From Pontivivens nitratireducens (GTDB lineage Bacteria; Pseudomonadota; Alphaproteobacteria; Rhodobacterales; Rhodobacteraceae): a stretch of DNA of 64,000 nucleotides. The stretch spans positions 1 to 64,000 of the forward strand of contig NZ_JACJUQ010000004.1 in assembly GCF_014235845.1 (NCBI RefSeq). Direction: 5' to 3'. This document shows positions 31,533 to 36,217 of the stretch, piece after piece (the stretch's first letter is position 1; every line of letters starts with the position of its first letter). A model generated the notes under the pieces. It did not search any database. It was not told where the DNA came from and saw only the letters and a list, made by a program, of their open reading frames with translations. The position numbers were made by a program, and so were the translations under genes.

Positions 31533-31607
31533 GGGCGTATAGCTCAGCGGGAGAGCACTTCGTTGACATCGAAGGGGTCACAGGTTCAATCCCTGTTACG
31601 CCCACCA
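31533..31607 (+). tRNA. tRNA-Val (anticodon GAC)
   Basis: A full cloverleaf is visible: acceptor GGGCGTA (31533-31539) pairs with TACGCCC (31597-31603), the D-arm is AGCTCAGCGGGAGAGC-like, and the anticodon stem CTTCG/CGAAG encloses TTGACAT with anticodon GAC. The T-arm has GGTTCAATC, and the discriminator A with genomically encoded CCA closes at 31607. It decodes GUC/GUU. rpmJ begins 86 bp downstream on the same strand, with no clear terminator between. Confidence 0.97.
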
Positions 31608-31968: not shown

Positions 31969-33531
31969 TCAGTTACCGGCCAGGGTGATCAACTGGCGCA
32001 CGGTTGCCTGATCGACATACCCGGTCGCGTTCAAGCCGAAATCGCGCTGGAACTGGCGCAGCCCCTGACGTGTCGTCTCATCAAAACTGCCCGAGATATT
32101 GCCCACGGGATACCCCTGCGATTGCAGGCGGATCTGGACGAGCGCCCGGTTGATCGAGTTCAGGCCCAGTGCCTGCTCGGTCGCTTGCGGGTCCTGCGCC
32201 GGGTCGGGTTGCTGCGTTTCCTGCGAGGCCCGCAAGGTCTCGATCTGAGCACGGGCGGTTGCCGCGAACTCACTGTTCGGGAAGTTGGCGACGAAGGTTT
32301 CGTACCCCTCGATCGTGTTCGCGTTCCGGGCCCGCTGCCAGGCCGCATTCACGTTTGCGTTCGCATTCGCGCGGTTGTTCTCGGCCTCGATCGCGTTCAG
32401 CTCGCTGCGGGCGCGCTCGGCGAAAACACCGTTCGGGAACGAGTCGAGATAGCGGCGCAACGCGGCCTCTTCTCCGCTTGCGCCTGTCGCATCCCAGAAT
32501 GCGCGATCCTCCCGCTCCCTCTCCGCTTTCTCGGCTGCCTGAGCGGCCTCCTGCTCGGCGCGCGCATTGTCGGCCTGAACGCCCAGCAGGTCGATCTGAC
32601 CGCGCGACAGGAACCCGCTCGCCGTGAAATCCTCGGATTGTTGCCATGCCGCGATGGCGCTGCGCGATCCCGGCCCGAAGATACCGTCAACGCCGCGCGT
32701 GTTGTATCCAAGTGCCACCAGATTCTGCTGGATCTGGCGCCGTTCGCTCCGCGACAGATTCAGCTGCTGCTCACGCGCCTCCGCCGGATTTTCCTCGACT
32801 TCAGGCTGCGGCTGCGGGGTCACGGTCGCAGGTTCGGGCCGGGCCGCGGGCAGTGGGGCAGGCTCGACCCGCTCTACCGCCAAAACGGCATCGCGCGGGG
32901 CGAATCCGAAGCGATTCAGGTCGTCGGGCAGATCATTGCCCATCTCACGCATTGTCATTCCCGGCTCCAACGCGGTGTTGCGCACCAGCGAGGACACGTC
33001 CGCGATTGATCCGGTGACGACCATCGTATCGCGCGGGGCGAACAAGCGCCCGATACCCGCCTCATAGCCTTCACCCTCGAATCCGCCATCCTCGTCACTG
33101 CCGACGAAAACGACGCCCAGTTCCTCGGCCTCGTCCACCAGCGACACGAAGAAATCTATCGTCGGCGCGGTCAGTCCGATTCGCACCACGCTGTCACCGT
33201 TGATATCCACCGGCATGAACCAGCTTTCGGTATCCGTCGTGACAGTGTGCCCGTTGAGATGAACAACGATCCGTTCCGCCCCGTCGATCTCATCCATGAA
33301 GCCACCCAGCAGGCTGAACAGCTGCGTACGCGTCAAATCCTCGCCCTGTGTCACGTCAAATCCAGCCGCGCGATAGGCATCGACCAGCCGGTCATGCTCA
33401 CGCGAAGTCACATCATCGGCGTTGGCGTAGTCTGAATTTCCGATGACCAATGCGACATCCTGCGCAAATGCAGGTGCGGCAACGGCCAGCAATGCCGTGC
33501 TGGCGAGCAAAGTCTTGAGTGTGGATCTCAT
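31969..33531 (-). CDS. secreted caspase-fold protein without catalytic Cys, with two peptidoglycan-binding domains
   Basis: A 520-residue exported protein: signal peptide ending near AFA (23), then a caspase/peptidase C14-like domain at about 25-190 opening with VALVIGNSDYAN. The dyad histidine appears preserved as His95 in HLNGHT, but the strand that should end in DACR reads VVFVGSDEDG (140-149), and the entire protein contains no cysteine. A Pro/Glu-rich linker (225-250) leads to a peptidoglycan-binding-1 domain (about 258-305), two TPR-like segments (RYLDSFPNGVFAERA and FVANFPNSEFAATARA) and a second peptidoglycan-binding-1 domain (about 465-517). It is likely a periplasmic, wall-bound pseudoprotease or scaffold. 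AGGAGG precedes the ATG and can be masked by a hairpin. It follows olsA by 77 bp. Confidence 0.75.
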   Translation of the reverse strand: MRSTLKTLLASTALLAVAAPAFAQDVALVIGNSDYANADDVTSREHDRLVDAYRAAGFDVTQGEDLTRTQLFSLLGGFMDEIDGAERIVVHLNGHTVTTDTESWFMPVDINGDSVVRIGLTAPTIDFFVSLVDEAEELGVVFVGSDEDGGFEGEGYEAGIGRLFAPRDTMVVTGSIADVSSLVRNTALEPGMTMREMGNDLPDDLNRFGFAPRDAVLAVERVEPAPLPAARPEPATVTPQPQPEVEENPAEAREQQLNLSRSERRQIQQNLVALGYNTRGVDGIFGPGSRSAIAAWQQSEDFTASGFLSRGQIDLLGVQADNARAEQEAAQAAEKAEREREDRAFWDATGASGEEAALRRYLDSFPNGVFAERARSELNAIEAENNRANANANVNAAWQRARNANTIEGYETFVANFPNSEFAATARAQIETLRASQETQQPDPAQDPQATEQALGLNSINRALVQIRLQSQGYPVGNISGSFDETTRQGLRQFQRDFGLNATGYVDQATVRQLITLAGN

Positions 33532-33608: not shown

Positions 33609-34445
33609 TCAGCTAATCGTGATCGCCTGCCCCGCAGGGGAATGAAGGGCCCAATGCGCACGAACCTGCTCACCGCAATGGCGCGCCAGTTCCTTGCGGC
33701 CCGCGAAATCGGCGGCTTCGACAGCGGGCGCGAAGCTGAGGTGCAGCGTGCCGCCATAGGAATGCGCCAGCAGGGTCCATAAACTCCCCCCCAGACTCAT
33801 ATCCCCCCACCAGCCATAGAACGTTGCCGGCAGGTGCGGCGCGGGCACGTAGATCGCGGCGACCGGCTGAATCTTGACGCCGCTTTCCATGTCGGAAAAT
33901 GCGGCGAACAGGGGGGATTTGAAGGGCAGGACCCGCTGCCCGTCGGTGCTGGTCCCCTCGGGGAAGAACAGCAATTGCTGCCCTTGCGCCAGACGCTCGG
34001 CCATTTCGAGCTTCTGCCTGGCCGCTGCGCTGGACCTGCGTTCGACGAACATCGCGTCCATCATGCGGGCACACCACCCGATGGCAGGCCAGTCCGCGAC
34101 CTCGGACTTCGCGACGAAGACCGTGCGCCCGATGGAACAGAACGCCATGATGTCCAGCCAGCTGGAGTGATTGGCAACCAGCGCCGCCCCGTCGGGCGGG
34201 GGGGTGCCGTGCACGATCCGCCGCAACCCGATCAAGCGCAGACTGCCACGGGCCCACAACCGCATGACGGCATAGCGAGGACGCCTGCCCCCCAGCAAAG
34301 GCTGCACCCATTTCAAGGGCAGATAGATCGCGATCGCCAGCACCAGCCACAGGATGAGCAATACGCCGCGCAGGACCGCGACGACGGCGCGCAACGGGCC
34401 GGTGGGCGGAGGGGCCGGCGGATCAGCTTCGTCCCACGTGCTCAC
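33609..34445 (-). CDS. olsA: 1-acylglycerol-3-phosphate acyltransferase-like OlsA (lyso-ornithine lipid acyltransferase)
   Basis: PlsC-family O-acyltransferase of 278 residues. It has an N-terminal membrane helix (about 20-44), the HX4D motif as NHSSWLD (92-98, His93/Asp98), and FPEGTS near 161. PlsC-type enzymes acylate lysophosphatidate; the immediate downstream overlap with the OlsB gene (4 bp ATGA) argues that this one acts on lyso-ornithine lipid as OlsA, giving phosphorus-free ornithine lipid for the outer membrane. OlsA proteins can also retain lysophosphatidate activity. A second PlsC paralogue lies at 55,871. Confidence 0.82.
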   Translation of the reverse strand: MSTWDEADPPAPPPTGPLRAVVAVLRGVLLILWLVLAIAIYLPLKWVQPLLGGRRPRYAVMRLWARGSLRLIGLRRIVHGTPPPDGAALVANHSSWLDIMAFCSIGRTVFVAKSEVADWPAIGWCARMMDAMFVERRSSAAARQKLEMAERLAQGQQLLFFPEGTSTDGQRVLPFKSPLFAAFSDMESGVKIQPVAAIYVPAPHLPATFYGWWGDMSLGGSLWTLLAHSYGGTLHLSFAPAVEAADFAGRKELARHCGEQVRAHWALHSPAGQAITIS

Positions 34446-35233
34446 GCAATGCCTTTTCCGGTCGTGCGGGTGTACATATCCTTGTAACGCTCCGTCATCG
34501 CTGCCGTGTCCATCAGCAGGCAGACATCTATGGTGTTGAAATCGTGGTCGATAAATGCCCCCTCGCCCACGACGCCGCCCAAACGCAGATACGCCTTGAT
34601 CAACGGCGGCATCTGCCGCATCGCCTGCCGCGCGTCGATCTGTGAGGCCGGCATGCGGTTCATCTCGACATAATGATCGGCCAGCGTGCGGACCCGCAAC
34701 GCAGGTGGGGCCAGATGGCTATGATACAGATGGGACAGAGGTTGCGCCACCGCGTCCACATCCGTTCCGGGGAAACTGGCCACACCGAAAAGCACTTCGA
34801 TACCGTGGCTCAGGACATATTCGCCCAAACCGGACCACAACAGATGCATTGCCACACCGCCGCGATAGTCCGGGTGCACGCAGGAACGGCCCAGTTCGAC
34901 CGTTTCGCGCCCCAGTCTGGTCAGCGGCTCCAGATCGTATTCGCTTTGGCCGTAAAACCCCGGCCCTGCCTGCGCGACCGAGCCGCGCAGCAGGCGATAG
35001 ACGCCGACAACATTTATCCCGTCCTCACCCGGGTGGAGCAGATCAATCAGCAACAGATGGTCAAAGAAGGGGTCGAAGCGGTCACGCTCCAGCCGCAGGG
35101 CGTGCTCCTCAGCCGAGGCGGACGCGCCCATCTCCTCGACGAACACGGTATATCTGAGGCGTTGAGCGGCGCGGATCTCGCCTTCGTCACGGGCGAGCCG
35201 TACCTGAAATCGCTTGGCATCGACCTTCATCAT
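34442..35233 (-). CDS. olsB: L-ornithine N-alpha-acyltransferase OlsB
   Basis: GNAT-fold N-acyltransferase of 263 residues that joins a 3-hydroxyacyl chain from ACP to ornithine, the first step of ornithine lipid synthesis. Typical stretches are the N-terminal RLRYTVFVEEMGA, the central VELGRSCVHPDYRGGVAMHLLW and the C-terminal PPLIKAYLRLGGVVGEGAFIDHDFNTIDVCLLMD shared by OlsB and hemolysin-like acyltransferases. The double ATG at 35233/35230 leaves the start uncertain by one codon. First gene of the olsBA pair. In rhizobia olsB responds to phosphate limitation; I see no clear Pho box here. Confidence 0.87.
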   Translation of the reverse strand: MMKVDAKRFQVRLARDEGEIRAAQRLRYTVFVEEMGASASAEEHALRLERDRFDPFFDHLLLIDLLHPGEDGINVVGVYRLLRGSVAQAGPGFYGQSEYDLEPLTRLGRETVELGRSCVHPDYRGGVAMHLLWSGLGEYVLSHGIEVLFGVASFPGTDVDAVAQPLSHLYHSHLAPPALRVRTLADHYVEMNRMPASQIDARQAMRQMPPLIKAYLRLGGVVGEGAFIDHDFNTIDVCLLMDTAAMTERYKDMYTRTTGKGIA

Positions 35234-35348
35234 AGGATCCGTGCTGGCGCCGGTATGCGTTCCGGCAGTCGGGGGGAACCTATTAGGACCACGCGCCGAC
35301 TTCAACGCGATAGGTCACCTGCCGGCAAAAGCGCCGCAGGGCTGCGCA

Positions 35349-35400: not shown

Positions 35401-35577
35401 TTATAGCTGATCGTGGATTTGGTGGAGGACGATGCGTGACCCATCGATCACCACCTTGCCGCGATTTTGAAAATTTACCGTGATCTTCCGCCCGATCACG
35501 GATTGCACCTGCCCGATACCCCAGTCCGGCTCATCAGGATGGCGCACCAGCGCGCCCGGTTCGAGGAATTCATTCAT
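35401..35577 (-). CDS. DUF3553 domain small protein
   Basis: A 58-residue protein, nearly all DUF3553: MNEFLEPGALVRHPDEPDWGIGQVQSVIGRK..., a small beta-barrel resembling the domain found at the end of some UvrD/CarD-like proteins that sense or bind nucleic-acid machinery. Function is unknown. The ATG at 35577-35575 shares the palindrome CATG with the chpT start on the other strand. A GTG two codons upstream is possible but less likely. Confidence 0.8.
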   Translation of the reverse strand: MNEFLEPGALVRHPDEPDWGIGQVQSVIGRKITVNFQNRGKVVIDGSRIVLHQIHDQL

Positions 35578-36217
35578 GGCCACTGCACCCCTGCTTCAAA
35601 ACTCAAACATCTCCTCGCGGATCGAGGACGATCTGATCGGCTTGGTGACATCGCGTATCTGCCATGATCTGGTCAGCCCCATCGGCGCGATCGACAATGG
35701 GGTCGAACTGATGACTGCGCTGTCCGGCACCTCACACTCCGCCGAAATGGGCCTGATCGGGCAAAGCGCAAGGGCGGCGGGCCTGAAACTCAGGCTGTTT
35801 CGCATCGCGTTCGGCGCCGCCTCCCCAGACGCGGTCAGCCGGGGTGAGGATCTGCGGCAGGTGTTCGAGGGGACGTTCAACCGGTCCCGGTTGAAATTCA
35901 GCTGGGTGGATCAGACGACGGCGATGTCCCGTCCGCAGGCAAAACTGCTCGCCCTGTCGCTGCTGTGCGCGGACACGGCCATGCCTTTCGGCGGATTGCT
36001 GACGCTGACCGTACTCGACAGCGGGGTGACGCTGAGCATGAGCAGCGAACGGTTCCGCTGGCAGGACGATCTGTGGGCCGCGCTGTGCGGCGATGGCACG
36101 TTCACGGATGTCGGTGCCGGGAACGTCCAGTTTCCCCTTGCCCGACTGCACGCCGATCAGATGGGGCGCCGGTTCGCCTTGCGTGAGGATACACAGAGCT
36201 GGATCCTCAGCGTCTAG
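35576..36217 (+). CDS. chpT: histidine phosphotransferase ChpT
   Basis: A 213-residue dimeric phosphotransferase that relays phosphate from the hybrid kinase CckA to CtrA and CpdR in the alphaproteobacterial cell-cycle/motility pathway. The phospho-accepting His30 lies in SRICHDLVSPIGAIDNGVEL, followed by the degenerate HATPase-like domain. ATG 35576 is preceded by GAGGAATTC, and that site is embedded in the first codons of the divergent DUF3553 gene. cckA and ctrA are not in the window. In Rhodobacterales this pathway governs motility and gene-transfer-agent expression rather than viability. Confidence 0.9.
   Translation: MATAPLLQNSNISSRIEDDLIGLVTSRICHDLVSPIGAIDNGVELMTALSGTSHSAEMGLIGQSARAAGLKLRLFRIAFGAASPDAVSRGEDLRQVFEGTFNRSRLKFSWVDQTTAMSRPQAKLLALSLLCADTAMPFGGLLTLTVLDSGVTLSMSSERFRWQDDLWAALCGDGTFTDVGAGNVQFPLARLHADQMGRRFALREDTQSWILSV

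Follow-up and report, generated by a model that had tools for sequence, protein, structure and literature searches.

The window, a 64,000-nucleotide stretch of DNA from Pontivivens nitratireducens, carries a coding sequence of 520 amino acids plus stop at positions 31969–33531, which confirms the reading frame of the original prediction and places it on the minus strand. From the N- to the C-terminus, the encoded protein comprises a signal peptide, a caspase-like p20 domain, a linker, a PG_binding_1 domain, a helical TPR-like segment and a second PG_binding_1 domain, all minus-strand features. The signal peptide (aa 1–23; 33463–33531) is of the Sec type as judged by eye, with cleavage after AFA, in agreement with the prediction, and a hydrophobic N-terminus was also seen by eye in 27 inspected family rows. 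The pseudo-p20 domain, delimited by Pfam and a structure model, spans aa 24–212 (32896–33462) and is followed by a Pro-rich linker (aa 213–253; 32773–32895), where model confidence is partly low. The PG_binding_1 domains lie at about aa 254–315 (32587–32772) and about aa 453–517 (31981–32175), with the helical segment between them (aa 316–452; 32176–32586). The peptidoglycan-binding domains had been predicted to flank the caspase-like domain; both instead lie C-terminal to it and flank the helical segment. Pfam assigns PG_binding_1 (PF01471) to two stretches with 96.5 bits against a cut-off of 23 (E 1e-27), whereas Peptidase_C14 (PF00656) is matched over aa 26–110 only, at 23.1 bits against 21.4. 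The predicted TPR-like segments hold as W..YL..YP.G.FA motifs in the helical segment of the model, but fall below the Pfam threshold (YfiO, 16.3 against a cut-off of 25; 24.3 in a relative, L004). There is no cysteine anywhere in the 520 residues, and a second C14 match is absent from the genome in the Pfam search. The same architecture was found again in other genera.

Convergent to the gene lies tRNA-Val(gac) (31533–31607, plus strand), a positional landmark outside the protein. The same arrangement, with the tRNA no more than 3 kb downstream, recurs in 51 of the 80 named loci (72 span that distance), and we read it as a shared ancestral position. Seven window neighbours were sought in the 80 named loci; a thiolase and an XDH-like gene turned up once each and the others not at all. 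In all four genomes of the genus, glutamate dehydrogenase is found in the flanks of about 1.5 kb. Frequent neighbours in loci from other genera (L032–L111) are genes for branched-chain amino acid transporters, an N-formylglutamate amidohydrolase (cluster in 57/80 loci) and a DinB-type polymerase (46/80). The transporter, amidohydrolase and DinB neighbours suggest no mechanism or pathway. Directly upstream in the window are an acyltransferase and a GNAT acetyltransferase gene (33609–35305, minus strand), the nearer of which ends 77 bases before the pseudo-caspase gene, so that the pair and this gene possibly form one transcript. The pair, which from gene order and type we presume might be olsA/olsB of ornithine lipid synthesis, is present in 2/4 genomes of the genus and in 0/80 more distant loci. 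Further along (35480–36217, plus strand) is a protein whose C-terminal domain is of the histidine phosphotransferase type and which we take to be perhaps ChpT-like.

The original prediction of a caspase (C14) pattern is borne out by the structure models. An AlphaFold2 model of the p20 domain alone, built with 64 aligned sequences, has a pLDDT of 93.0 and a pTM of 0.90, and that of the mature protein (66 sequences) a pLDDT of 92.1 and a pTM of 0.48; these alignments used 64 and 66 of a possible 81 rows, with L080 left out for a stop within the coordinates used. In the mature-protein model the predicted domains are sound and their mutual arrangement is uncertain, and pLDDT drops below 50 in the linker at mature residues 206–221 (aa 229–244). 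The best PDB match of the p20 model in Foldseek is MALT1 (E 1.7e-9). In VIA-align the one-domain model aligns 168 residues with MALT1 residues 342–555 (7ak1) at an rmsd of 2.3 and a Z of 18.7, and the next match is procaspase-6 (Z 16.7). The best 50 matches listed by each program are all caspases or paracaspases, some of them in complexes. MALT1 and the animal caspases are proteases with a His-Cys dyad. The predicted fold resembles theirs over the whole model, with Z values of 18.7 for MALT1 and up to 16.7 for caspases, whereas the listed identities are only 9–18%. The window p20 is thus predicted with confidence to have a caspase fold, in place of the non-caspase fold that would have spoken against the original prediction. 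The Z of 18.7 to MALT1, together with the recurrence of the protein in other genera, indicates more than a chance likeness.

The catalytic site was read from 107 family rows aligned to 21 other p20-like genes of the window's bacterial family, the dyad being intact in 19 of the latter; the 107 rows draw on two collections and hold some genomes twice, and the conservation, identity and pocket counts include these duplicates. Twenty rows were added, comprising 19 of 20 fetched loci drawn from matches in 163 of 394 genomes (the remaining one, L138, is L022 again) and L132. With the intact orthocaspases L134 and L135 set aside, the resulting 127 rows reduce to 116 distinct mature sequences, the window protein included. 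His95 (33247–33249) occupies the column of the dyad His in the 19 intact orthocaspases, as proposed, and Asp146 (33094–33096), in the VGSDED stretch named in the original prediction, occupies that of their Cys, directly past a strand of the model. None of the 116 distinct members has Cys at this position, which is occupied by Glu in 50, Asp in 27, Ala in 10, Gly and Ser in 9 each, Pro, Asn, Thr and Gln in 2 each and Arg, Tyr and Val in 1 each. The His position holds His in 62 members, Arg in 36, Ala in 6, Gln in 5 and seven single others, which leaves 54/116 without His. From these counts, the Cys was probably already lost before the examined members diverged from one another, which bears on the question of ancestral loss raised with the prediction. 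The mature chain is Cys-free in 115 of the 116; the exception, L027, has a single Cys in p20, six residues past the His position, which is Arg in this protein. A conserved displaced Cys, the other finding that would have contradicted the prediction, was looked for among the 116 members and not found, and a protease using such a residue was rejected on this ground. His is combined with Ser at the Cys position in 7/116 members, and activity in this minority is conceivable. Whole-chain absence of Cys is less striking than it appears, because in 5 of the 19 intact orthocaspases the catalytic Cys is the sole mature Cys and one substitution can therefore yield a Cys-free chain. A crude filter for exported proteins, applied as a control for Cys content, gave three clusters only, one of them Cys-free.

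The substitutions extend to the substrate pocket. The residue two before the Cys is Asp in 19/19 intact orthocaspases, and we take it as the equivalent of TbMC2 Asp211 as described in the available text of Klemencic et al. (2019; PMC6426788), an equivalence that we infer. Among the 107 family rows it is Gly in 84, Ala in 16 and Asp in one, and the window protein has Gly144. The column taken for the other pocket Asp holds Asp in 40 and Glu in 27 of the 107 rows, the window protein having Glu45. The DG..G.NSP loop of the intact enzymes is missing from 106/107 rows, the exception being L022, which is also the sole row to keep both this loop and the pocket Asp. A PQGVTV motif is retained in most of the 107 rows (P in 104, Q in 96, G in 104 and V in 101) and reads PRDTMV in the window protein. 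Pfam scores for C14 vary among relatives, from 16.4 in L007, under the cut-off of 21.4, to no match in L027. The window protein is a secreted pseudo-orthocaspase in which the substrate pocket has been dismantled as well; the fold, the absence of Cys at the site in 116/116 members and the loss of pocket features uphold the original assignment as a pseudo-caspase.

Relationships were examined in an IQ-TREE phylogeny built on 47 of the 107 family rows plus the 21 others (68 in total), midpoint-rooted for drawing only, in which L127 and L017 have long branches. L022 is placed between the group of intact orthocaspases and the rest of the family, with supports of 99/91 and 99/96. In L022 the Cys is replaced by Ala, and the dyad His, pocket Asp and loop are all retained; it scores 69.2 bits against C14 and is likely an intermediate on the way from active orthocaspases. 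Of 289 genomes from the bacterial class that were searched, four have a match at E<=1e-25. Two belong to the window's bacterial family, one of them being the window's genome itself; the matches in the other two, L134 and L135, are intact orthocaspases whose tail looks similar by eye, L135 having been read by eye only. L134 has GHG and DACR at the dyad, a tail with one PG_binding_1 domain and a C14 score of 158.3 bits. The series may well have begun with an orthocaspase resembling L134, exported, with a His-Cys dyad and with TPR-like and PG-binding parts in its tail; the Cys would have been lost first, as in L022 with its Ala, the pocket and loop next, and the His position would have been freed last. 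A reading from one intermediate suggests this order of losses.

The p20 domain is under purifying selection. Its dN/dS is 0.10–0.34 in 18 disjoint pairs, several of which have high dS and two of which are saturated in other domains, and 0.11 between the window protein and an orthologue in genome G003. A non-functional or chance reading frame was rejected on these values. Mean pairwise identity, duplicates included, is lowest among the folded parts for p20 (0.34, compared with 0.58 for the first PG_binding_1 domain, 0.47 for the helical segment and 0.55 for the second PG_binding_1 domain). Two other p20-like genes were noted alongside the family. L125, from the same bacterial family, encodes another pseudo-p20 with the His kept and Ala at the Cys position (IDAARRND); its C-terminal part resembles an FGE-sulfatase domain by eye, and it groups with L119 in the tree, apart from the window protein's family. 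L127, from the window's genus, is a second, shorter protein of about 325–350 aa (frame from 396, plus strand) with a highly diverged p20-like N-terminus that has neither His nor Cys, one PG_binding_1 domain and no Pfam C14 match.

A family alignment matches 88 of 198 genomes from the same bacterial family (E<=1e-30), and the p20 part is seen in 84 of these 88 (83 in the search listing and G117 by inspection). Five matches look partial: L158 and L159 are cut by contig ends, the genomes with such cut matches being G157 and G190, L161 has a p20, and L160 and L162 have no detectable p20, so that at least two of the 88 matches are p20-less. L160 (genome G205) and L162 (genome G143) retain PG-binding, helical and PG-binding parts, with additional copies of the TPR-like stretch in L162; G205 and G143 each carry a strong C14 match and lack a Photo_RC match. 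No C14 match of any strength was found in 37/88 family-bearing genomes, which indicates that Pfam misses many family members. We confirmed 516 relatives, the best 80 of which, ranked by likeness to L007, were used; these 80 carry Rhodobacterales-type genus names or broader labels, with one Maritalea by name, and include Defluviimonas denitrificans DSM 18921 and Limimaricola hongkongensis DSM 17492. A scan of genome contigs with the window protein alone gave 33 pattern matches, from which no relative was confirmed, and PADLOC assigned no family. In a plasmid collection, the best places in 24 records cover only the PG-binding or the PG-plus-helical part, and none covers 80% of the query.

The role that we favour, with somewhat better than even confidence, is that of an envelope adaptor, tethered to the wall and independent of any caspase partner. 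Once exported, the protein would be held on peptidoglycan by its two C-terminal PG_binding_1 domains, the stalk and linker would act as a spacer, and the inert p20 would present a binding platform to a periplasmic partner, so that the protein would be an envelope adaptor and neither a protease nor a regulator of one. Export and wall binding are predicted from domain content, which is also what supports the wall anchoring originally proposed. We advance more tentatively, as possible if somewhat doubtful, the broader proposal that the caspase fold serves as a peptidoglycan-tethered non-enzymatic module, dismantled in the order Cys, pocket and loop, His, and working without a caspase in the cell. 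The p20-less relatives lower our confidence in the adaptor and raise that in a wall-binding protein with a vestigial p20, in which function would rest with the PG-binding domains and helical stalk. The better conservation of these parts and the variable dyad positions also favour a vestigial p20, as does the persistence of PG, stalk and PG in L160 and L162, but the low p20 dN/dS in 18/18 pairs, the complete and confidently predicted fold and the retention of p20 in 84/88 matched genomes make a vestige unlikely, albeit an alternative of some weight. That the protein still acts as a hydrolase, through a different nucleophile or an acidic mechanism where the Cys used to be, could draw on the Glu or Asp found there in 77/116 members and the Ser in 9/116; we consider it very improbable, since this position and the preceding one are both variable, the His is missing in 54/116 and the family has lost the pocket Asp and the loop.

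Co-occurrence bears on two further proposals, the original prediction having suggested a scaffold or a decoy. A role in regulating active orthocaspases or in acting as their decoy, comparable to that of cFLIP towards caspase-8, has precedents among the pseudo-caspases named in the available text of PMC6426788, and 26/88 family-bearing genomes do carry a strong C14 match. However, such a match is missing in 62/88 at E<=1e-20, a limit of our choosing (59/88 at E<=1e-10), the window's genome has no C14 match besides the window protein itself, and across the 198 genomes we found no positive association (odds ratio 0.73, p 0.36), with Fisher's test only a guide for genomes that are related and not independent. 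The decoy was rejected on these data and seems to us highly unlikely, leaving a scaffold or adaptor as the likeliest part of the earlier suggestion. A photosynthesis-linked role, put forward for alphaproteobacterial pseudo-orthocaspases in the sections of PMC6426788 to hand, could appeal to Photo_RC genes in 37/88 family-bearing genomes. These genes are present in 83 of the 198 genomes, with no association with the family (odds ratio 1.01, p 1.0), and a Photo_RC match is absent from the window's genome; this link was rejected for want of association and is, in our estimate, scarcely credible. With G143 and G205 left out, 62/86 genomes lack a strong C14 match and 37/86 have Photo_RC.

An envelope adaptor of this kind would give the caspase fold a testable periplasmic role that is neither proteolysis nor protease control, and the family would provide a natural series for how a protease turns into a non-enzymatic part, including a likely intermediate in which the Cys alone is replaced. 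In most of its genomes the family is the sole caspase homologue found at the limit used. Pseudo-orthocaspases and PG-binding metacaspases are already in print, in the text available to us, and the window protein's family is a variant of these; a limited literature search found no description of it. According to the accessible parts of PMC6426788, 858 of 9,994 bacterial orthocaspases are pseudo-variants, 14 of them from Rhodobacterales, and YS, YA, FS, QC and HA are the common alphaproteobacterial pseudo-dyads. The same parts describe two Asp residues of the pocket as highly conserved among prokaryotic pseudo-variants and propose a tie of the alphaproteobacterial ones to phototrophy. Those proteins and the window family share a bacterial p20 homologue with a substituted His-Cys dyad and presumed inactivity. 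As far as these parts of the paper go, the window family differs in its mostly acidic Cys position, in the loss of the Asp before the Cys in 106/107 rows (duplicates included), where the paper has it conserved, and in the lack of a phototrophy association among 198 genomes, and so fits neither the published phototrophy tie nor the kept pocket Asp residues. A PG-binding tail is likewise not among the alphaproteobacterial pseudo-architectures named there, and in the available text of PMC3501461, 11 of 671 prokaryotic metacaspases have a PG-binding domain.

The closest active counterparts are exported orthocaspases with a PG_binding_1 tail. L134 shares with the window family an export signal (by eye), p20, a TPR-like stretch and PG_binding_1, but retains GHG and DACR, and its single PG_binding_1 domain compares with two in the window family. 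A functional comparison is offered by SyOC of Synechocystis PCC 6803, knock-out of which raises H2O2 tolerance (PMC7889975, in the portion available). SyOC is cyanobacterial, and a PG-binding domain is not mentioned in that portion of PMC7889975, unlike the window protein; like it, SyOC is a pseudo-orthocaspase where no other orthocaspase is listed, Synechocystis PCC 6803 appearing with SyOC alone in the excerpted text of PMC6426788. Within what these sources state, SyOC therefore indicates that a pseudo-orthocaspase can have a phenotype without another listed orthocaspase.
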